Assembly (NCBI RefSeq): GCF_000293885.2
Contig: NZ_CP010945.1
Coordinates: 1,756,001-1,820,000 of the forward strand
DNA from: Pseudomonas fluorescens NCIMB 11764
GTDB taxonomy: Bacteria > Pseudomonadota > Gammaproteobacteria > Pseudomonadales > Pseudomonadaceae
Reading direction: 5' to 3'
Length of the DNA stretch: 64,000 bases
The notes below the pieces were generated by a model. The model was not told the origin of the DNA. It was given only the letters and a program-made list of their open reading frames with translations, and made no database searches. The translations under genes and the position numbers were made by a program. Below, one piece after another: positions 3,634 to 62,846 of the stretch; position 1 is the first letter of the stretch, and each line of letters opens with the position of its first letter.

Positions 3634-3726
3634 TGTGGCGAGGGAGCTTGCTCCCGCTGGGCTGCGAAGCGGCCCCAAAAAATGGACTGCTAGGCAGTCC
3701 AGGCGGGAGCAAGCTCCCTCGCCACA
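3634..3726. repeat. REP doublet, family B (GTGGCGAGGGAGCTTGCTCCC type)
   Basis: The inverted copies start TGTGGCGAGGGAGCTTGCTC and end GAGCAAGCTCCCTCGCCACA, with an inner arm pair around GACTGC/GCAGTC. It lies between the convergent serB and PilZ-like genes. It is the first of six copies of this family here (others at 13260, 33011, 41111, 43704 and 54830). Confidence 0.9.
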
Positions 3727-33223: not shown

Positions 33224-33310
33224 TGGTGCCCAGAAGAAGACTCGAACTTCCACGACCTTGCGGTCACCAGCACCTGAAGCTGGCGTGTCTACCAATTTCA
33301 CCATCTGGGC
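33224..33310 (-). tRNA. tRNA-Leu (anticodon CAG), copy 1
   Basis: An 87-base long-variable-arm tRNA including encoded CCA. The acceptor stem GCCCAGA pairs with TCTGGGC. The anticodon stem CCAGC/GCTGG holds the loop TTCAGGT with anticodon CAG, reading CUG. The T arm contains GTTCGAGTC. Identical in sequence to the second copy 252 bases away. Confidence 0.95.
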
Positions 33311-33475: not shown

Positions 33476-33562
33476 TGGTGCCCAGAAGAAGACTCGAACT
33501 TCCACGACCTTGCGGTCACCAGCACCTGAAGCTGGCGTGTCTACCAATTTCACCATCTGGGC
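33476..33562 (-). tRNA. tRNA-Leu (anticodon CAG), copy 2
   Basis: An 87-base gene identical to copy 1 over its whole length, with acceptor stem GCCCAGA/TCTGGGC, anticodon loop TTCAGGT and encoded CCA. It lies upstream of copy 1 in transcription order. The two copies are separated by a terminator and a promoter, so they are independent units. Confidence 0.95.
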
Positions 33563-43703: not shown

Positions 43704-43834
43704 TGTGGCGAGGGCGCTTGCTCCCGCTCGACTGTGAAGCAGTCGCAAACCAGCTGGCACGTCTTGATAGAAGGGACTCATTACCTGATTCAGGGCCGCT
43801 GCGCGCCCCAGCGGGAGCAAGCGCCCTCGCCACA
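43704..43834. repeat. REP doublet, family B
   Basis: TGTGGCGAGGGCGCTTGCTC and an inverted copy ending GAGCAAGCGCCCTCGCCACA. The matched GGGCGC/GCGCCC change in both arms keeps the pairing, a sign of selection or gene conversion on the hairpin. Confidence 0.9.
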
Positions 43835-43899
43835 ATGACGGCGTACACTCACTCCTGCGCCACAAATGCGTGCAACTCCCCCAAACCAATTCTCCGCAT

Positions 43900-43916
43900 T
43901 GCCCGATTTTGGTGCT
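43900..43916 (+). promoter_or_regulatory. Possible NtrC-type site upstream of the peptide-ligation operon
   Basis: TGCCCGATTTTGGTGCT compares with TGCACC-N5-GGTGCA at 9 of 12 positions, including a perfect GGTGC half. It lies ~45 bases upstream of the -24 element, closer than usual for an enhancer. Confidence 0.3.
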
Positions 43917-43958: not shown

Positions 43959-43974
43959 TGGCATAAGTCTTGCG
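43959..43974 (+). promoter_or_regulatory. Candidate sigma-54 promoter of the transglutaminase/ATP-grasp operon
   Basis: TGGCATAAGTCTTGCG has GG and GC at the required 10-base separation, and matches TGGCACG-N4-TTGCW at 9 of 12 positions. The predicted start near 43985 gives a 28-base leader containing AGGAGG before the GTG at 44013. Confidence 0.5.
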
Positions 43975-44012
43975 CGCTTTCGAATACGCTCAAGGCTCGC
44001 AGGAGGCACGCC

Positions 44013-47000
44013 GTGTCGATTCATGTCGCATTGCACCACGTCACGCATTACCGCTACGACCGCGCCGTCGAGCTCGGGCCGCAGATCGTTCGCCTGCGCC
44101 CGGCCGCCCACAGTCGCACGCGGATACTGTCGTACGCGCTGAAAGTCTCGCCCGAGCAGCATTTCATCAACTGGCAGCAGGATCCCCAGGGCAATTACCT
44201 GGCGCGGTTGGTGTTCCCGGAGAAAACCGCGGAACTGCGGATCGAAGTCGATCTGCTGGCAGAGATGGCGGTGTTCAATCCGTTCGACTTTTTCCTCGAG
44301 CCTTACGCCGAACAGATCCCTTTCGCCTACGCTGCCGACGAGCGCAAGGAACTGGCGCCGTACCTGGAAACCTTGCCGCTGACGCCGAAGTTCAAGGCGT
44401 ATCTGGACGGTATCGACCGCACGCCGTTGCCAAGCGTGGATTTCCTTGTCGCGCTGAACCAGCGGCTGAGCGAAGACATTGGCTACCTGATTCGTATGGA
44501 GCCGGGTGTGCAAACGCCTGAACACACGCTTGAGCATGCCTCCGGTTCCTGCCGCGACTCGGCGTGGTTGCTGGTGCAATTGCTGCGCAATCTCGGGCTG
44601 GCCGCTCGTTTCGTCTCCGGTTACCTGATTCAACTCACCGCCGACGTCAAAAGTCTGGATGGCCCTTCTGGTACCGAGGTGGACTTCACTGATTTGCACG
44701 CCTGGTGCGAAGTCTATTTGCCGGGGGCCGGCTGGATCGGCCTGGACGCGACGTCGGGGCTGTTTGCCGGTGAAGGACACATTCCGTTGGCGTGTAGTCC
44801 CGATCCGGGCTCTGCGGCACCGATCAGTGGCTTGGTGGAACCGTGCGAGTGCGAATTCACCCATGAAATGTCCGTGGAGCGGATTTGGGAAGCGCCGCGG
44901 GTCACCAAGCCCTACACCGAGGATCAATGGCTGGCGATCCAGGCGCTGGGCCGGCAGATCGATGCCGACCTGCTGGAAGGCGACGTTCGCCTGACCATGG
45001 GCGGGGAGCCGACCTTCGTCTCCATCGATGATCCAGACGGCGCCGAGTGGAACACCGCTGCACTCGGGCCGGACAAGCGTCGCCTGTCCGCCGAACTGTT
45101 TCAGCGCATGCGCAAGCGTTACGCGCCCAAGGGCCTGGTGCACTTCGGTCAAGGCAAGTGGTACCCCGGCGAGCAACTGCCGCGCTGGTCGCTGAACTGT
45201 TACTGGCGTCGGGACGGCGTGCCGATCTGGCACAACAGCGCGCTGATTGCCGACGAGCAGGAAGACTACGGCGCCGATGGCGAGCTGGCGGGGCGCTTTC
45301 TGGCAAGTGTCGCCGAACGTTTGAAAATTCCGACACGTTTTGTGTTCCCGGCTTACGAAGACAATTTCTATTACCTCTGGCGCGAAGGCACGTTGCCGCA
45401 GAACGTCAGCGCCGAAGACTCACGACTGGAAGAGCCGCTGGAGCGTGCGCGTCTGCGTAAAGTCTTCAGTCAGGGGCTGGATAAAGTAATCGGCCAGGTC
45501 CTGCCGCTGGCGCGCACCGCCAAGGGCGATCAATGGCAAAGCGGTCGCTGGTACCTGCGCGATGACCACTGCCGCTTGGTGCCGGGGGATTCGCCGCTGG
45601 GCTATCGCTTGCCGCTGGGATCGCAGCCGTGGGTCAAGGCCGCCGAGTATCCGTTCATCTATCCCAACGACCCTAACCAGGAATTCCCGGCGCTTCCGGA
45701 CACCCAGCAGCTGAACAGCCCCGGAGCCGCGGCTGAAGCGGTCGAGCGGGATCTGGAGGTCGACGAATCCGCCGACTGGCTGACGCGCACCGCGTTTTGC
45801 GCCGAGGCGCGGGAAGGGCGCTTGTACCTGTTCATGCCGCCGCTGGAGCGGGTCGAGGATTATCTGGAACTTGTCACCGCGATCGAGGCCACGGCGCAGG
45901 AATTGCACTGCCCGGTGTTGCTGGAAGGCTATGAGCCGCCGAGCGATCCGCGTCTGAGCAACTTCCGCATCACCCCGGACCCGGGCGTGATCGAGGTGAA
46001 CGTGCAGCCGTCCGCCACATGGGACGAACTGGTCGAGCGCACCGAGTTTCTCTACGAAGAGGCGCGCCAGACCCGGCTGACCACCGAGAAATTCATGATC
46101 GATGGCCGACACACTGGCACCGGCGGCGGTAACCATTTCGTACTGGGTGGCGCGACGCCGGCTGACTCACCGTTTCTGCGTCGTCCCGACCTGCTGCGCA
46201 GCCTGATCAGTTACTGGCACAACCATCCGTCGTTGTCCTACCTGTTTTCCGGGCTGTTCATCGGCCCGACGTCCCAGGCACCGCGCGTCGATGAGGCACG
46301 CAACGATGCGCTGTACGAGCTGGAAATCGCCTTTGCACAAATGCCTGAACCGGGCGAAGAGTGCGCGCCATGGCTGGTGGATCGGTTGTTGCGCAACCTG
46401 TTGATCGACGTGACTGGCAACACCCACCGCGCCGAGTTCTGCATCGACAAGCTTTATTCACCGGACGGCGCGACGGGGCGCCTTGGTTTGCTGGAGTTGC
46501 GTGCCTTTGAAATGCCACCGCATGCGCGCATGAGTCTGGCGCAACAGTTGTTGCTGCGAGCGCTGGTCGCGCGATTCTGGCGCGAGCCTTATGCGCCGCC
46601 GAAACTGGCGCGCTGGGGCACTGAATTACACGACCGGTTCCTGTTGCCGCACTTTATCGAACAGGATTTCGCCGATGTCATCGTTGATCTCAACGCCTCG
46701 GGTTACCCCGTGCGGGCCGAGTGGTTTGCCGCGCATCTGGAGTTCCGCTTTCCCAAGGTCGGCGACTACGCCGTCAGCGGCATCGAACTGGAAGTGCGCC
46801 AGGCGCTCGAGCCGTGGCATGTGCTGGGCGAGGAGGGCGCCGTTGGTGGCACGGTACGGTATGTGGATTCTTCCCTTGAGCGTTTGCAGGTCAAGCTCAC
46901 CGGCCTGCCGCCGCAACGTTATTTGCTGACCTGCAACGGCGTTCCGGTGCCCTTGCAGCCCACCGGGCGGGTTGGCGAGTTCGTGGCCGGCGTGCGTTTC

Positions 47001-47288
47001 CGCGCCTGGCAGCCGGCCAACTGCCTGCAACCGACCATTGCGGTCCATGCGCCGCTGGTGTTCGACCTGCTCGACACCTGGATGCAGCGGTCGCTGGGGG
47101 GCTGTCAGTACCACGTCGCCCATCCGGGCGGGCGCAACTATGACAGCTTGCCGGTGAACGCCAATGAAGCCGAAAGTCGGAGAATGGCGCGTTTCTTCCG
47201 CATCGGACACAGCCCAGGGAAACTTCCTATCCCGATTCTGGAAGTTAACGACGAGCTGCCGATGACTCTCGATTTGCGACGTTTCTAA
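44013..47288 (+). CDS. Transglutaminase-like / DUF2126 fusion protein
   Basis: A 1091-residue protein. An N-terminal transglutaminase-associated beta domain (~1-90, VALHHVTHYRYDRAVELGPQ) is followed by a papain-fold transglutaminase core. The triad is Cys180 (GSCRDSAW), His229 (LHAWCE) and Asp245 (GLDATSG). The DUF2126 region fills ~290-1090, including LTMGGEPTFVSIDD and KWYPGEQLPRWSLNCYWR. No signal peptide. Family members accompany ATP-grasp/alpha-E proteins, as here. The role is predicted as hydrolysis or transfer at amide bonds of a peptide made by the ligase; the substrate is unknown. Start is GTG 44013 with AGGAGG 6 bases upstream. An in-frame extension to 43866 would cover the promoter and is rejected. 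Confidence 0.88.
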   Translation: MSIHVALHHVTHYRYDRAVELGPQIVRLRPAAHSRTRILSYALKVSPEQHFINWQQDPQGNYLARLVFPEKTAELRIEVDLLAEMAVFNPFDFFLEPYAEQIPFAYAADERKELAPYLETLPLTPKFKAYLDGIDRTPLPSVDFLVALNQRLSEDIGYLIRMEPGVQTPEHTLEHASGSCRDSAWLLVQLLRNLGLAARFVSGYLIQLTADVKSLDGPSGTEVDFTDLHAWCEVYLPGAGWIGLDATSGLFAGEGHIPLACSPDPGSAAPISGLVEPCECEFTHEMSVERIWEAPRVTKPYTEDQWLAIQALGRQIDADLLEGDVRLTMGGEPTFVSIDDPDGAEWNTAALGPDKRRLSAELFQRMRKRYAPKGLVHFGQGKWYPGEQLPRWSLNCYWRRDGVPIWHNSALIADEQEDYGADGELAGRFLASVAERLKIPTRFVFPAYEDNFYYLWREGTLPQNVSAEDSRLEEPLERARLRKVFSQGLDKVIGQVLPLARTAKGDQWQSGRWYLRDDHCRLVPGDSPLGYRLPLGSQPWVKAAEYPFIYPNDPNQEFPALPDTQQLNSPGAAAEAVERDLEVDESADWLTRTAFCAEAREGRLYLFMPPLERVEDYLELVTAIEATAQELHCPVLLEGYEPPSDPRLSNFRITPDPGVIEVNVQPSATWDELVERTEFLYEEARQTRLTTEKFMIDGRHTGTGGGNHFVLGGATPADSPFLRRPDLLRSLISYWHNHPSLSYLFSGLFIGPTSQAPRVDEARNDALYELEIAFAQMPEPGEECAPWLVDRLLRNLLIDVTGNTHRAEFCIDKLYSPDGATGRLGLLELRAFEMPPHARMSLAQQLLLRALVARFWREPYAPPKLARWGTELHDRFLLPHFIEQDFADVIVDLNASGYPVRAEWFAAHLEFRFPKVGDYAVSGIELEVRQALEPWHVLGEEGAVGGTVRYVDSSLERLQVKLTGLPPQRYLLTCNGVPVPLQPTGRVGEFVAGVRFRAWQPANCLQPTIAVHAPLVFDLLDTWMQRSLGGCQYHVAHPGGRNYDSLPVNANEAESRRMARFFRIGHSPGKLPIPILEVNDELPMTLDLRRF

Positions 47289-47376
47289 ACCGTACGCGAC
47301 GCTCGGATTTTTCGTATATCCGGGCGTCATGAGCCTGCGTTAGTCTGACCGTTCCTTGCTGTCTGCCGAGCTTTCC

Positions 47377-49863
47377 ATGCCTGACCTGCTAGACCGCTAC
47401 CCGCTGACGGCGGGCACTTATCACGAACTGCTCGACAACAGCGGCGCGGTGCGTTTGCACTGGCGTCGGCTGTTCGACCAGTTGCAACGCAGTACGCCCG
47501 CGCAGCTGGTGCAGCGTCAGGCACTGCTGACCCGGCAGATCCAGGAAAACGGCGTGACCTACAACGTCTACGCCGATCCCAAGGGCGCGGATCGACCGTG
47601 GGAGCTGGACCTGCTGCCGCATGTGATCGCCGCGGATGAGTGGGCGCTGTTGTCAGCCGGGATCGCACAGCGGGCGCGTCTGTTGAATGCCGTCCTGGCG
47701 GATTTATACGGGCCGCAGCGGCTGATCGCTGAAGGCTTGCTGCCGGCTGAACTGGTGTTCGGTCACAACAACTTCCTCTGGCCCTGTCAGGGCATCACGC
47801 CGCCCGACGGGGCCTTTCTGCATCTGTATGCCGTGGATCTGGCGCGCACGCCCGACGGGCGCTGGTGGGTCACGGCGGATCGGACTCAGGCACCGTCCGG
47901 CGCGGGTTACGCCCTGGAAAACCGCACGATCGTGTCCCGGGCCTTCCCCGAGTTGTACCGAGATTTGAAGGTGCAGCATCTGGCCGGGTTCTTCCGCACG
48001 CTGCAGGAAACCCTGGCCCGTCAGGCTCCGAGCGATGATGAAGCGCCGTTGGTGGTACTGCTGACACCGGGGCGTTTCAACGAAAGCTACTTCGAACATC
48101 TGTACTTGGCACGGCAGCTCGGTTATCCGCTGGTGGAGGGTGGCGACCTCACGGTGCGCGATGCCACGGTGTACCTGAAAACCCTGAGCGGCCTGCGTCG
48201 CGTCCACGCGATCATGCGTCGCCTCGACGACGACTTCTGCGATCCGCTGGAATTGCGCACCGACTCTGCGCTGGGCGTGCCGGGCCTGCTCGAAGCCGTG
48301 CGGCAGGGGCGAGTGCTGGTGGCCAACGCGCTGGGCAGCGGCGTTCTCGAGTCGCCAGGACTGTTGGGCTTTCTACCGAGGATCAATCAATTCCTGTTCG
48401 GCGAAGAGCTGATTCTGCCCTCCATCGCCACATGGTGGTGCGGCGAAGCGCCGGTGCTGGCCCAGGCATTGGAAAAGTTGCCGGAGCTGCTGATCAAACC
48501 GGCGTTTCCTTCGCAGAGTTTTGCGCCGGTATTTGGCCGTGACTTGAGTGAAAAACAGCGCCAGACCCTTGCTGAGCGCATGCAGGCGCGACCTTACGCC
48601 TATGTGGCGCAAGAGCTGGCGCAATTGTCGCAGGCGCCGATCTGGCAGGCTGAGGACGGTCAGTTACAGCCTCGGGCGATCGGCATGCGCATGTATGCGG
48701 TGGCCAGTCGCGATGGCTATCGGGTGCTGCCCGGTGGTTTGACCCGTGTGGCCGCCGAGGCCGATGCCGAAGTGGTGTCGATGCAACGTGGCGGCGCGAG
48801 CAAGGACACCTGGGTGCTGGGGGATCGGCCACCGAGCGGCGAGCAGTGGAAAGCCCAGCGCAGCATCGGCGTGCACGACCTGGTGCGGCGCGATCCGTAT
48901 CTGCCGTCCCGGGTCGTGGAAAACCTGTTCTGGTTCGGCCGCTACTGTGAACGCTGCGATGACAGCGCTCGGTTGCTGCGGATCATGCTGGCGCGCTACG
49001 TCGACGGCGATGACCCGCAAGCTCTGGAGGCGGCTGTCGAACTGGGCGAGCGGTTGATGTTGCTGCCCGATGAAGGCGAATTGCCTGAACGGCTACTGGC
49101 GGCGCTGCTCGGCGACGACTGGCCGTTCAGCCTGCGTTCCAACCTGCAGCGCTTGCAGTGGGCGGCTTCTCAGGTGCGCGGCAAGCTCTCGCGGGAAAAC
49201 TGGCAGGCGCTGGTGGAGTTGCAGCGCGAGGCAATCGAGCTGGAAACCGAAGAGCCGGATTTCGGCGAGTTGCTGGATTTCCTCAACCGTCTGGTGATGT
49301 CGCTGGCGGCGCTGTCGGGTTTTGCCCTCGACGACATGACCCGGGACGAAGGCTGGCGCTTCCTGATGATCGGCCGGCGGATCGAGCGCCTGCAATTTCT
49401 CAGCGGCAGCCTGGCGGCGTTCCTGCGCGGTAGTGGTGCCTTCGACCAGGCCGGACTTGAATGGCTGCTGGAACTGGGCAACAGCAGCATCACCTACCGC
49501 TCGCGGTATCTGGCGGTGGCGCAATTGATTCCGGTGCTGGACCTGTTGCTGCTCGATGAGCAGAACCCTCACGCCGTGTTGTTCCAGCTGAAACTGGTCA
49601 CTCGCACCCTCAAGCGGTTGAACGATGATTTTGCTGTGCCGCGCGAAGCGGGGCTGCCGCACTTGGTGGAACGGCTGGCGCGCTTCGATCTGGGGTGCCT
49701 GGAGAATTCGTTGTTCGGCGATGCCAGCGTTCGTGCCGCCATAGAGGGTCTGGCCGATCTGCTGCAAGAGATCGCTGACGCCAGCGGACAAGTGTCGGAT
49801 CGTCTGGCGTTGCGCCATTTCGCCCATGTCGATGATGTCAGCCAGCGCACGGTGTCCGTCTGA
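47377..49863 (+). CDS. Circularly permuted ATP-grasp / alpha-E fusion protein
   Basis: An 828-residue protein with two parts. Residues ~1-480 form the circularly permuted ATP-grasp type 2 domain (YADPKGADRPWELDLLPHVI, PDGRWWVTADRTQAPSGAGYALENR, LLIKPAFPSQSFAPVFG). Residues ~505-815 form the helical alpha-E (DUF403) domain (SRVVENLFWFGRYCERCDDSARLLRIMLARY, WRFLMIGRRIERLQFLS). In many bacteria these are separate genes. Comparative genomics by Iyer, Aravind and colleagues predicts such proteins are amidoligases making unknown peptides. ATG 47377 gives MPDLLDRYPL; a TTG at 47356 is an alternative start. Overlaps the next gene by one base. Confidence 0.88.
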   Translation: MPDLLDRYPLTAGTYHELLDNSGAVRLHWRRLFDQLQRSTPAQLVQRQALLTRQIQENGVTYNVYADPKGADRPWELDLLPHVIAADEWALLSAGIAQRARLLNAVLADLYGPQRLIAEGLLPAELVFGHNNFLWPCQGITPPDGAFLHLYAVDLARTPDGRWWVTADRTQAPSGAGYALENRTIVSRAFPELYRDLKVQHLAGFFRTLQETLARQAPSDDEAPLVVLLTPGRFNESYFEHLYLARQLGYPLVEGGDLTVRDATVYLKTLSGLRRVHAIMRRLDDDFCDPLELRTDSALGVPGLLEAVRQGRVLVANALGSGVLESPGLLGFLPRINQFLFGEELILPSIATWWCGEAPVLAQALEKLPELLIKPAFPSQSFAPVFGRDLSEKQRQTLAERMQARPYAYVAQELAQLSQAPIWQAEDGQLQPRAIGMRMYAVASRDGYRVLPGGLTRVAAEADAEVVSMQRGGASKDTWVLGDRPPSGEQWKAQRSIGVHDLVRRDPYLPSRVVENLFWFGRYCERCDDSARLLRIMLARYVDGDDPQALEAAVELGERLMLLPDEGELPERLLAALLGDDWPFSLRSNLQRLQWAASQVRGKLSRENWQALVELQREAIELETEEPDFGELLDFLNRLVMSLAALSGFALDDMTRDEGWRFLMIGRRIERLQFLSGSLAAFLRGSGAFDQAGLEWLLELGNSSITYRSRYLAVAQLIPVLDLLLLDEQNPHAVLFQLKLVTRTLKRLNDDFAVPREAGLPHLVERLARFDLGCLENSLFGDASVRAAIEGLADLLQEIADASGQVSDRLALRHFAHVDDVSQRTVSV

Positions 49864-50753
49864 TGAGCGCCCGTTACCAGATTTTCCACGACACCCATTA
49901 TCACTACGACAGCCCGGTGTCCCTCGCCCAGCAATTGGCACACCTGTGGCCGCGATCGTGTGCCTGGCAGCGCTGCACCGAGCAGCAATTGCAGATCAGC
50001 CCCGATCCGACATCGCGCCGGGACGAGCTGGATGTGTTTGGCAACCCGCTGACCCGACTGGCATTCGAGCGGCCGCACGATGAACTATTGGTCAACGCCC
50101 GGCTCACCGTCGAAGTGATGTCTCGGCCAACGCTGGATTTCAATCAATCCCCGGCCTGGGAAGACACCCGCAACGCACTGACCTACAGCAGTCAGCCGCT
50201 TTCTCCTGAATTGCTGGAAGCTTGCCGTTACCGGTTCGAATCGCCCTATGTGCATCTGAAGCGCAACTTCGTCGAGTTCTCGGAAAGTTGTTTCCCCGCG
50301 GGCCGTCCGTTGTTGCTCGGCGTTCAGGCGCTGATGGAGAAAATCTTCAGCGAGTTCACCTTCGACGCCGAAGCGACGCAGGTGGCAACGCCACTGGTGG
50401 AAGTGCTGGAGCGCCGGCGCGGGGTTTGCCAGGACTTCGCTCACCTGATGCTCGCTTGCGTGCGTTCCCGCGGGTTGGCGGCTCGTTACATCAGCGGTTA
50501 CCTGCTGACTCAGCCACCGCCCGGCCAGCCACGGCTGATCGGTGCCGACGCCTCGCATGCCTGGGTTTCGGTTTTTTGCCCGATGCTGGGCTGGGTGGAT
50601 TTCGATCCGACCAACAATGTGCAGCCGGCGCTGGAACACATCACCCTGGCCTGGGGCCGGGATTTCTCCGATGTCTCGCCGTTGCGGGGGGTGATTCTGG
50701 GGGGCGGTAATCACGACCCGGAAGTCCGCGTCACCGTAATGCCACTGGAGTAA
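49863..50753 (+). CDS. Transglutaminase-like cysteine peptidase-fold protein
   Basis: A 296-residue cytoplasmic protein with an N-terminal beta domain (YQIFHDTHYHYDSPVSLAQQLAHLWPR) and a transglutaminase core. The putative triad is Cys189 (RGVCQDFAH), His232 (ASHAWVSV) and Asp248 (WVDFDPTNN), all present. Its start overlaps the stop of the ATP-grasp/alpha-E gene (TGATG), so the proteins are probably made in fixed ratio. It is the third member of the predicted peptide ligation/processing operon. A different substrate from the first transglutaminase domain is likely, but unproven. Confidence 0.88.
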   Translation: MSARYQIFHDTHYHYDSPVSLAQQLAHLWPRSCAWQRCTEQQLQISPDPTSRRDELDVFGNPLTRLAFERPHDELLVNARLTVEVMSRPTLDFNQSPAWEDTRNALTYSSQPLSPELLEACRYRFESPYVHLKRNFVEFSESCFPAGRPLLLGVQALMEKIFSEFTFDAEATQVATPLVEVLERRRGVCQDFAHLMLACVRSRGLAARYISGYLLTQPPPGQPRLIGADASHAWVSVFCPMLGWVDFDPTNNVQPALEHITLAWGRDFSDVSPLRGVILGGGNHDPEVRVTVMPLE

Positions 50754-50830: not shown

Positions 50831-51022
50831 TCAGGCGTCGGGCGCCTGATCTTTCGGTGCTTCAACATCACTTTCTGCGGCCACTTCACCGTCTGTTTCC
50901 GGGTTCAGTGCGGCGGCTTCTTCTTCAGCTGTAGCTTTCTTGCGCTGAAGCTTTTCCTCTTTCTTCTGCTCCTTGGCCAAGTCTCTCTGACGTTTGGCGA
51001 AGGAATAATTAGGTTTAGCCAT
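50831..51022 (-). CDS. Small highly charged protein of unknown function
   Basis: A 63-residue protein: MAKPNYSFAKRQRDLAKEQK, then a Lys/Glu-rich helix to ~residue 36, then an acidic Glu/Asp/Ala/Pro tail. No membrane segment or known catalytic motif. The amphipathic basic helix could bind nucleic acid, which is speculation. The GATCGCC before the ATG has only a weak ribosome site (GAGGAT-like, 51027-51032). It is convergent with the transglutaminase operon. The frame extends upstream to 51115 without support. Confidence 0.65.
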   Translation of the reverse strand: MAKPNYSFAKRQRDLAKEQKKEEKLQRKKATAEEEAAALNPETDGEVAAESDVEAPKDQAPDA

Positions 51023-51090
51023 GGGCGATCCTCTGGGGTCGAAGGTGAGGTTGAGCGGCGCATATTCTGCCCTGTATCGGTGCCGAGCCG

Positions 51091-51678
51091 TTAGCTGGGT
51101 TTTTGCTCTGTCCACTTTGGCACCACGGTCGGCTGCCAGGCATCCAGGGCATCGAGCAGGGTTTGCGGCGATTCGCTCAGTTGCAGCATGTCACGGTGCG
51201 CTTCGCGAACGAAGCCTTCGCCGACGATATGATCAAGAAAACCAGTCAATTTGCTGTAGAAGCCGTTCACTTCCAGCAGACCCAGTGGTTTGCCGTGGTA
51301 GCCGAGCTGGCCCCACGTCCAGACTTCGAACAGTTCCTCCAGAGTGCCCAGGCCGCCGGGCAATGCGATAAATGCGTCGCTGAGCTCAGCCATCCGCGCC
51401 TTTCGCGCATGCATGCCGTCGACCACTTCGAGGCGAGTCAGGCCGCTGTGGCCGATTTCCTTGTCCTTGAGGCTTTGCGGGATGATCCCGATCACTTCAC
51501 CGCCGGCTGCCAGTGCAGCATCGGCCACAATCCCCATCAACCCCACGGCGCCGCCGCCATAGACCAGGGTCAACCTGCGCTCGGCCAATGCTCGCCCCAG
51601 GGCGACAGCCGCTTCACGATAAGCCGGGTTGGTGCCGGTGCTGGCACCGCAAAATACACAAACGGATGCTAAAGACAT
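51091..51678 (-). CDS. LOG-family nucleotide 5'-monophosphate phosphoribohydrolase
   Basis: A 195-residue Rossmann-like protein of the TIGR00730/LOG family with the signature [20 protein letters not shown], and CVFCGASTG and [18 protein letters not shown] near the N terminus. Relatives cleave cytokinin riboside monophosphates or AMP to free base and ribose 5-phosphate. The actual substrate here is unknown. The ATG at 51678 gives [13 protein letters not shown]; an upstream ATG at 51705 would add nine residues. Confidence 0.88.
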
Positions 51679-59266: not shown

Positions 59267-59282
59267 TGGCACGGCCCTTGCT
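59267..59282 (+). promoter_or_regulatory. Sigma-54 promoter of braCDEFG
   Basis: TGGCACGGCCCTTGCT matches TGGCACG-N4-TTGCW at all 12 defined positions. Transcription is expected to start near 59292, leaving a ~48-base leader before braC. Confidence 0.8.
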
Positions 59283-59339
59283 CTGAGCATTCAGTGAAGT
59301 TGCAGTGCCAATTAAAAAAAAACCTTGGAGCACCACCTC

Positions 59340-60644: not shown

Positions 60645-61559
60645 ATGGATGGTATTTTCCTGCAGCAACTGGTCAACGGCCTGACCCTCGGGTCGGTCTA
60701 TGGCCTGATCGCCATCGGCTACACAATGGTCTATGGCATCATCGGCATGATCAACTTCGCCCATGGTGAGGTTTACATGATCTCCGCTTACCTCGCGGCG
60801 ATCAGTCTGGCTCTGCTGGCATACTTCGGTATTGAATCCTTCCCTCTGCTGATGCTTGGCACACTGGTCTTCACCATCATCGTCACGGCGGTTTATGGCT
60901 GGGTCATCGAGCGTGTCGCCTACAAACCCCTGCGTAACTCAACCCGACTGGCACCGCTGATCAGCGCCATCGGTATTTCCCTGATCCTGCAAAACTATGC
61001 ACAGATCGCCCAGGGCGCCCGCCAACAAGGCGTACCTACCTTGCTGACCGGTGCATGGCGAGTGGAAGTCGGAAGCGGCTTCGTCCAGCTCACCTACACC
61101 AAGATCTTCATTCTGATCGCCGCATTCGCCGGCATGGCCCTGCTGACCTACGTCATCAAGTACACCAAGCTCGGCCGCATGTGCCGCGCCACCCAGCAAG
61201 ACCGCAAGATGGCCTCGATCCTGGGGATCAACACCGATCGCGTGATTTCCTACGTGTTCATCATCGGTGCCGCAATGGCGGCCCTGGCCGGTGTGCTGAT
61301 CACCATGAACTACGGCACGTTCGACTTCTACGCAGGCTTCGTTATCGGTATCAAGGCGTTCACCGCTGCGGTACTTGGCGGAATCGGCTCGCTGCCTGGC
61401 GCGATGCTTGGCGGGATCATCCTCGGCATTTCCGAGTCGCTGTTCTCGGGTCTGGTCAACTCGGACTACAAAGACGTTTTCAGCTTCTCGCTGCTCGTTC
61501 TCGTTCTGGTCTTTCGGCCCCAAGGCCTGCTCGGCCGTCCTCTTGTGTCGAAGGTGTAA
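60645..61559 (+). CDS. braD: Branched-chain amino acid ABC transporter permease
   Basis: A 304-residue LivH-type permease with about eight membrane helices, starting MDGIFLQQLVNGLTLGSVYGLIAIGYTMVYGIIGMINFAHGEVYM. The cytoplasmic coupling loop RMCRATQQDRKMASILGIN is followed by the ALAGVL and GGIGSLPGAMLGG segments. Pairs with BraE to form the membrane channel. 3 bases separate it from braE. Confidence 0.94.
   Translation: MDGIFLQQLVNGLTLGSVYGLIAIGYTMVYGIIGMINFAHGEVYMISAYLAAISLALLAYFGIESFPLLMLGTLVFTIIVTAVYGWVIERVAYKPLRNSTRLAPLISAIGISLILQNYAQIAQGARQQGVPTLLTGAWRVEVGSGFVQLTYTKIFILIAAFAGMALLTYVIKYTKLGRMCRATQQDRKMASILGINTDRVISYVFIIGAAMAALAGVLITMNYGTFDFYAGFVIGIKAFTAAVLGGIGSLPGAMLGGIILGISESLFSGLVNSDYKDVFSFSLLVLVLVFRPQGLLGRPLVSKV

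Positions 61560-62842: not shown

Positions 62843-62846
<4 letters not shown>
61563..62846 (+). CDS. braE: Branched-chain amino acid ABC transporter permease
   Basis: A 427-residue LivM-type permease. An N-terminal extension of ~110 residues with three helices is followed by the core, with VVGLAGLLDLGYVAFYAIGAYGLAL, the coupling loop GRAWEALREDEIACRSMGLN and VLGGMGSTIGVVIAAF. Length matches E. coli LivM. Overlaps braF by 4 bases (ATGA). Confidence 0.94.

Follow-up and report, generated by a model that had tools for sequence, protein, structure and literature searches.

In a 64,000-nucleotide window of the Pseudomonas fluorescens NCIMB 11764 genome (contig NZ_CP010945.1, positions 1,756,001 to 1,820,000; the host genome comprises 7.0 Mb in a single contig), three genes on one strand form an operon (window positions 44013-50753), which encodes a transglutaminase-like protein with a DUF2126 domain (TG-DUF2126), a circularly permuted (CP) ATP-grasp fused to an alpha-E domain and a stand-alone transglutaminase-like (TG) protein. 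We propose, at a probability of about 0.5, that this operon represents one half of an amide ligation and hydrolysis system induced by nitrogen limitation, in which the gene 2 product would be a non-catalytic partner. The likely ligase is not the ATP-grasp that was first suspected, since the catalytic residues of the latter appear to be lost. The domain class was already known and operons of this kind are common in bacteria; new are the ligase assignment, the degenerate fused ATP-grasp, the conserved sigma54-type elements at this operon and at a second locus of the same genome, and the lack of a detectable Anbu peptidase. An earlier sequence-only reading of the operon had overlooked the ligase role of DUF2126, the degeneracy of the fused ATP-grasp and the second, split locus.

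Gene content and domain composition of the operon

Gene 1 (44013..47288, + strand) starts with a GTG codon at 44013, which is preceded by a good ribosome-binding site (Shine-Dalgarno AGGAGG, 44001..44006). Its product matches the Pfam families Bact_transglu_N (2.1e-26), Transglut_core (5.9e-18) and DUF2126 (1351 bits), the latter covering residues 276-1089 (44838..47279). Gene 2 (47377..49863, + strand) probably starts with the ATG at 47377, because the resulting 828 aa equal the length of most homologues among the 120 listed, and carries CP_ATPgrasp_2 (8.2e-158) and Alpha-E (2.9e-64) on a single chain; its alpha-E domain (48901..49821) retains the ER motifs E525-R526 and E670-R671. Gene 3 (49863..50753, + strand) shares one base, 49863, with gene 2 and matches Bact_transglu_N (3.2e-27) and Transglut_core (1.4e-19). 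The Pfam search recovered all families named by the sequence-only reading, and the gene overlap and the fusion it had described are present. The Cys-His-Asp triads that it had assigned to both transglutaminase cores are invariant, i.e. C180/H229/D245 in 39 of 39 aligned proteins for gene 1 and C189/H232/D248 in 50 of 50 for gene 3, and the TG domain of gene 1 and the gene 3 product are likely two amide-bond-cutting enzymes. The closest named proteins among the matches listed are from Pseudomonas.

PMC5666114 and PMC6376114 cite Iyer et al. 2009 for a peptide-synthesis class of ATP-grasp, alpha-E and transglutaminase proteins. The operon described here likewise unites a CP ATP-grasp, an alpha-E domain and transglutaminase domains. 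A second ligase resembling glutamine synthetase (GS) is reportedly a further feature of the class, and DUF2126 provides it here, based on Pfam and the GS fold of the model. No established product of the ATP-grasp/alpha-E family was found in the literature searched.

DUF2126 is the likely ligase-like domain

The DUF2126 model matches the GS fold over model residues ~299-915 (VIA-align), and since its predicted fold is that of GS, DUF2126 is likely the ligase-like domain of the operon, a predicted GS-fold amidoligase. Its residues E332, E661, N663, H708, E828 and R830 are invariant across the 39 aligned proteins. It shares this predicted fold with the GS superfamily (GS, GmaS, YbdK-type), but differs from it by its fusion to a TG domain. 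Several results weigh against the assignment: Foldseek alone gave no significant match between DUF2126 and GS (E 0.08 or worse), the structure model of gene 1 is moderately confident (pLDDT 78), and a sequence-level profile comparison of DUF2126 (39 proteins) with a single glnA sequence yielded no match (probability 0.2%).

A GS-type domain could also serve amine scavenging, whereby DUF2126 would gamma-glutamylate free amines like the GmaS-type or polyamine enzymes, nitrogen would be recovered in starvation and the TG domains would release or transfer the glutamyl group. We regard this as a possible but rather unlikely explanation: the fold match is unable to separate GS subfamilies, and among open reading frames (ORFs) of at least 90 aa no gene recurred in at least five non-Pseudomonas loci, except for genes of the system itself, a single large ORF shared by six loci, and antisense frames.

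The ATP-grasp fused to alpha-E appears degenerate

The gene 2 product adopts a permuted ATP-grasp fold of the glutathione synthetase type. We compared the ATP-grasp of the window and of 42 further loci, chosen among the 67 whose gene 2 is full-length (those omitted being mainly close Pseudomonas), with 26 split, i.e. unfused, proteins (the host's own and those of 25 loci), which had passed filters on start, length and identity (minimum 50%). The E-x-N metal-binding motif and the glycine-rich loop are lost in all 43 fused proteins. In gene 2, residues A167-D168-R169 (47875..47883) stand where the split paralogue of the same genome has its metal motif (E159/N161), and Q380-S381-F382-A383 (48514..48525) where it has its GGYG loop (residues 370-373; split-protein numbering starts at L006:3667, one residue ahead of the ATG at 3670). 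The roles of the glutamate and the loop follow what PMC2845819 states for the glutathione synthetases of yeast and trypanosomes, and we infer from motif and fold that these sites are equivalent to those of gene 2. In an alignment, 3n6x, a putative glutathionylspermidine synthase of Methylobacillus flagellatus whose chain stops before an alpha-E domain, retains both elements (LEDN and a GSGGYGM loop), unlike gene 2. The fused ATP-grasp appears to be degenerate, having lost its catalytic Mg-ATP residues.

The sequence-only reading had suggested that the fusion keeps an active ligase stoichiometric with its alpha-E partner, the two transglutaminase-like proteins trimming the product. Its broader interpretation, a predicted operon for amide or peptide ligation plus hydrolysis with no established product, is supported, but the active fused ligase is not: a loss of ATP-binding residues, which it had named as counting against its view, is found in gene 2. 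The domain families and the fold are as an active enzyme would have them, D154, R282 and R438 (43 of 43 fused proteins) as well as D284, D285, Q412 and D477 (42 of 43) match the split proteins, and a related ATP-grasp protein of a Yersinia Anbu operon frees phosphate from ATP. Nevertheless, besides lacking both motifs, the fused ATP-grasps diverge faster, and in one lineage with DUF2126 and the split enzyme no fused gene was found, which makes an active fused ligase improbable. Missing canonical residues are no proof of lost catalysis, since R169 and Q171 are conserved across the fused family and the lysine preceding the glycine-rich loop is retained in 32 of 43 fused proteins; this limits the case for a non-catalytic gene 2 product.

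Sigma54-type elements precede the operon and the split locus

A sigma54-type -24/-12 element, TGGCATAAGTCTTGC, is located at 43959..43973 (+ strand), ~40 bp ahead of the gene 1 start codon. Two-mismatch matches to such elements are common within the window (47 seen vs 38 expected). The element is present in 29 of 29 same-genus loci with a locatable start (30 fetched), in two of them with one spacer base changed, and the flanking DNA has diverged. For a broader comparison, 80 named loci fetched via the DUF2126 alignment, the best 80 of 593 relatives, were used, with 200 bp upstream being scored, at least 7 of 8 counting as strong and first-gene or internal classes being assigned by eye. All 26 Pseudomonas-group loci, of which 25 are named Pseudomonas and one is the gamma proteobacterium L18, have strong elements, as do 21 of 37 non-Pseudomonas loci with the DUF2126 gene first and 2 of 17 internal loci, compared to 4 of 401 other ORFs. 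The two internal hits (L163, L172) are really first-gene positions, because the match starts at an extra leading transglutaminase gene. At the split locus of the same genome, a perfect sigma54-type element begins 50 bp ahead of the first ATG; in other genomes, the region ahead of the split ATP-grasp gene reached a sigma54 score of 7 in 8 of 26 cases and of 6 in 20 of 26, the corresponding shares among random 350-bp windows being 1.4% and 5.1%.

Further upstream, GCCCGATTTTGGTGC (43901..43915, + strand) deviates by one mismatch from GCAC-N7-GTGC, which we take to be the NtrC consensus. NtrC-like sites with no or one mismatch occur near -112 in many Pseudomonas loci; one-mismatch sites were found in 43 of 80 loci (25.8% of random windows) and exact ones in 10 of 80 (264 of 16000 random windows, 1.65%).

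Elsewhere in the window, a perfect sigma54 -24/-12 match, TGGCACGGCCCTTGC (59267-59281, + strand), closely precedes a gene set for a branched-chain-type ABC transporter (binding protein at 59325, permeases at 60645 and 61563, ATPase at 62843).

Related gene clusters are induced under nitrogen limitation

The P. putida genes PP_2685-2688 presumably encode the same families, judging from their annotation. Their induction under nitrogen limitation has been reported: in data presented in PMC7801951, PP_2686-2688 rose 11 to 15 fold in the wild type and were assigned to ntrB/ntrC, and PMC3325844 lists PP2685-2687 as upregulated, with 11.1 fold for PP_2685. In Burkholderia cenocepacia H111, I35_5080-83 are among the common NtrC and sigma54 targets listed in PMC5491218 and dropped 6 to 9 fold in the ntrC mutant. 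This cluster encodes DUF404/407, DUF403, transglutaminase-like and large transglutaminase-like proteins, the last of which would correspond to TG-DUF2126, and it uses split proteins, whereas ATP-grasp and alpha-E are fused here. Because of these published data and the conserved sigma54-type elements, we consider nitrogen limitation the relevant condition. Nitrogen induction of related clusters is well supported, and the operon is probably induced under nitrogen scarcity.

A number of observations argue against regulation by sigma54 and NtrC. Strong elements are absent in 16 of 37 non-Pseudomonas first-gene loci, and the one-mismatch NtrC-like site of the window, being of a common kind, is weak evidence on its own. 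In the PMC7801951 data, PP_2685 rose merely 1.12 fold in the wild type, and PP_2686-2688 rose 14-20 fold in the rpoN mutant, as did the urt genes with the same assigned regulator (Table 2 therein). Since the rise in the rpoN mutant is as large as that in the wild type, sigma54 is dispensable for PP_2686-2688 in this data set. The evidence for a sigma54 requirement is mixed, supported by element conservation and the B. cenocepacia data and contradicted by one P. putida data set. Induction of NtrC-assigned urt genes and PP_2686-2688 in an rpoN mutant is in itself odd for sigma54 promoters.

Distribution of the operon, the split locus and Anbu

In 69 of the 80 loci, TG-DUF2126 is followed on the same strand by the fused ATP-grasp/alpha-E gene and then by TG, plainly in 67 of them and with an extra leading transglutaminase gene in two; eight of the 69 contain a gap of 0.9-2.5 kb, and several of the remaining 11 loci stop at a contig edge. 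The ordered loci include Pseudomonas, beta-proteobacteria, Verrucomicrobia, one planctomycete and one myxobacterium. Within the genus, 220 of 298 genomes contain DUF2126, and a sample of 299 genomes spanning the phylum includes 84 with this domain. All 84 encode alpha-E, and at least two alpha-E copies were found in 76 of them compared to 11 of the 215 genomes without DUF2126. A separate genome (L183, G559:C1:3606000-3620000) encodes a TG-DUF2126 protein that is divergent, at 32-36% identity; neither ATP-grasp nor alpha-E was matched in the 14 kb examined.

In many non-Pseudomonas loci, unfused ATP-grasp and alpha-E genes are located upstream of the operon or divergent from it, and Burkholderia sp. 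TSV86 (L142) has its split genes in one row with the fused one. In P. fluorescens NCIMB 11764 the split pair, accompanied by a transglutaminase-like gene of its own, is found at ~3.19 Mb (G000:C1:3193669-3196847; L006 3670-6848), 1.4 Mb from the operon.

The Anbu operon, e.g. of Yersinia bercovieri, combines the same families, i.e. split ATP-grasp, alpha-E and transglutaminase, with Anbu; unlike it, the operon described here has a fused and degenerate ATP-grasp and an added DUF2126. An Anbu protein search of the host genome gave no match at E 1e-10, no Anbu gene lies in the 13 kb read around the split locus, and the proteasome family PF00227 yielded a single 187-aa frame, which was taken as HslV. 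Across the 299 genomes, Anbu was detected in 101, and 100 of these encode alpha-E. It was found in 50 of the 84 DUF2126 genomes and not in the other 34, from which we conclude that the DUF2126 module does not require it. In three genomes examined, Anbu adjoins DUF2126. The association of Anbu with alpha-E and its occasional adjacency to DUF2126 would fit the hypothesis, set out in PMC5666114 and PMC6376114, that proteins are tagged with peptides and Anbu acts as remover or degrader. For the present operon this is improbable, given that Anbu was not found in the host, in five of six DUF2126-positive genomes of its genus within the sample or in the 34 genomes mentioned, and that no tag gene recurred beside the operon in a search limited to ORFs of at least 90 aa. 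A partnership among the proteins, as we propose, is itself weakened by PMC6376114, where no specific interaction was detected among the proteins of a related Anbu operon.

Neighboring features

Between ygiQ and the operon promoter lies an inverted repeat with two gcgagggcgcttgctcccgc-type arms (43705..43838), which we take to be REP-like; it is context and no functional part of the operon. A convergent ORF adjoining the operon end (50831-51115, - strand) encodes a small, highly charged protein with no Pfam or NCBIfam match. Two adjacent tRNA-Leu(cag) genes are located at 33224-33310 and 33476-33562 (- strand).

Discussion

In the mechanism that we favor, the operon would be transcribed by sigma54 RNA polymerase, probably activated by NtrC, with the element at 43959 as its promoter. 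Gene 1 would form the bond, its GS-fold ligase being joined to a cysteine transglutaminase-like hydrolase or transferase, and gene 3 would supply a second hydrolase or transferase, the bond made and cut being an amide or isopeptide. Gene 2, keeping its fold without the Mg-ATP residues, would most likely act as scaffold, substrate binder or competitor and may partner the intact split ATP-grasp and alpha-E at 3.19 Mb, where the split ATP-grasp would be a further ligase beside DUF2126.

Pupylation (PafA/Dop) uses a GS-fold ligase tied to nitrogen starvation, and its likeness to the operon is by analogy only. Taken further, the two sigma54 loci could form one nitrogen-starvation machine, in which the GS-fold ligase tags proteins or peptides, the TG domains reverse the bond, and the conserved pseudo-ATP-grasp/alpha-E protein, with R169/Q171 replacing the metal motif, serves as a regulatory sensor or performs a new ATP-independent chemistry. 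We consider this extension a long shot; if true, proteobacteria would follow a logic like that of pupylation, but with neither Pup (no search for a Pup-like gene was made) nor a 20S proteasome.

The candidate ligases for further work are DUF2126 and the split ATP-grasp rather than the fused protein, and the relevant condition is nitrogen limitation. The intact and the degenerate ATP-grasp in one genome provide a built-in control pair. For the family as a whole, a CP_ATPgrasp annotation in fused proteins calls for caution before it is read as ligase activity.

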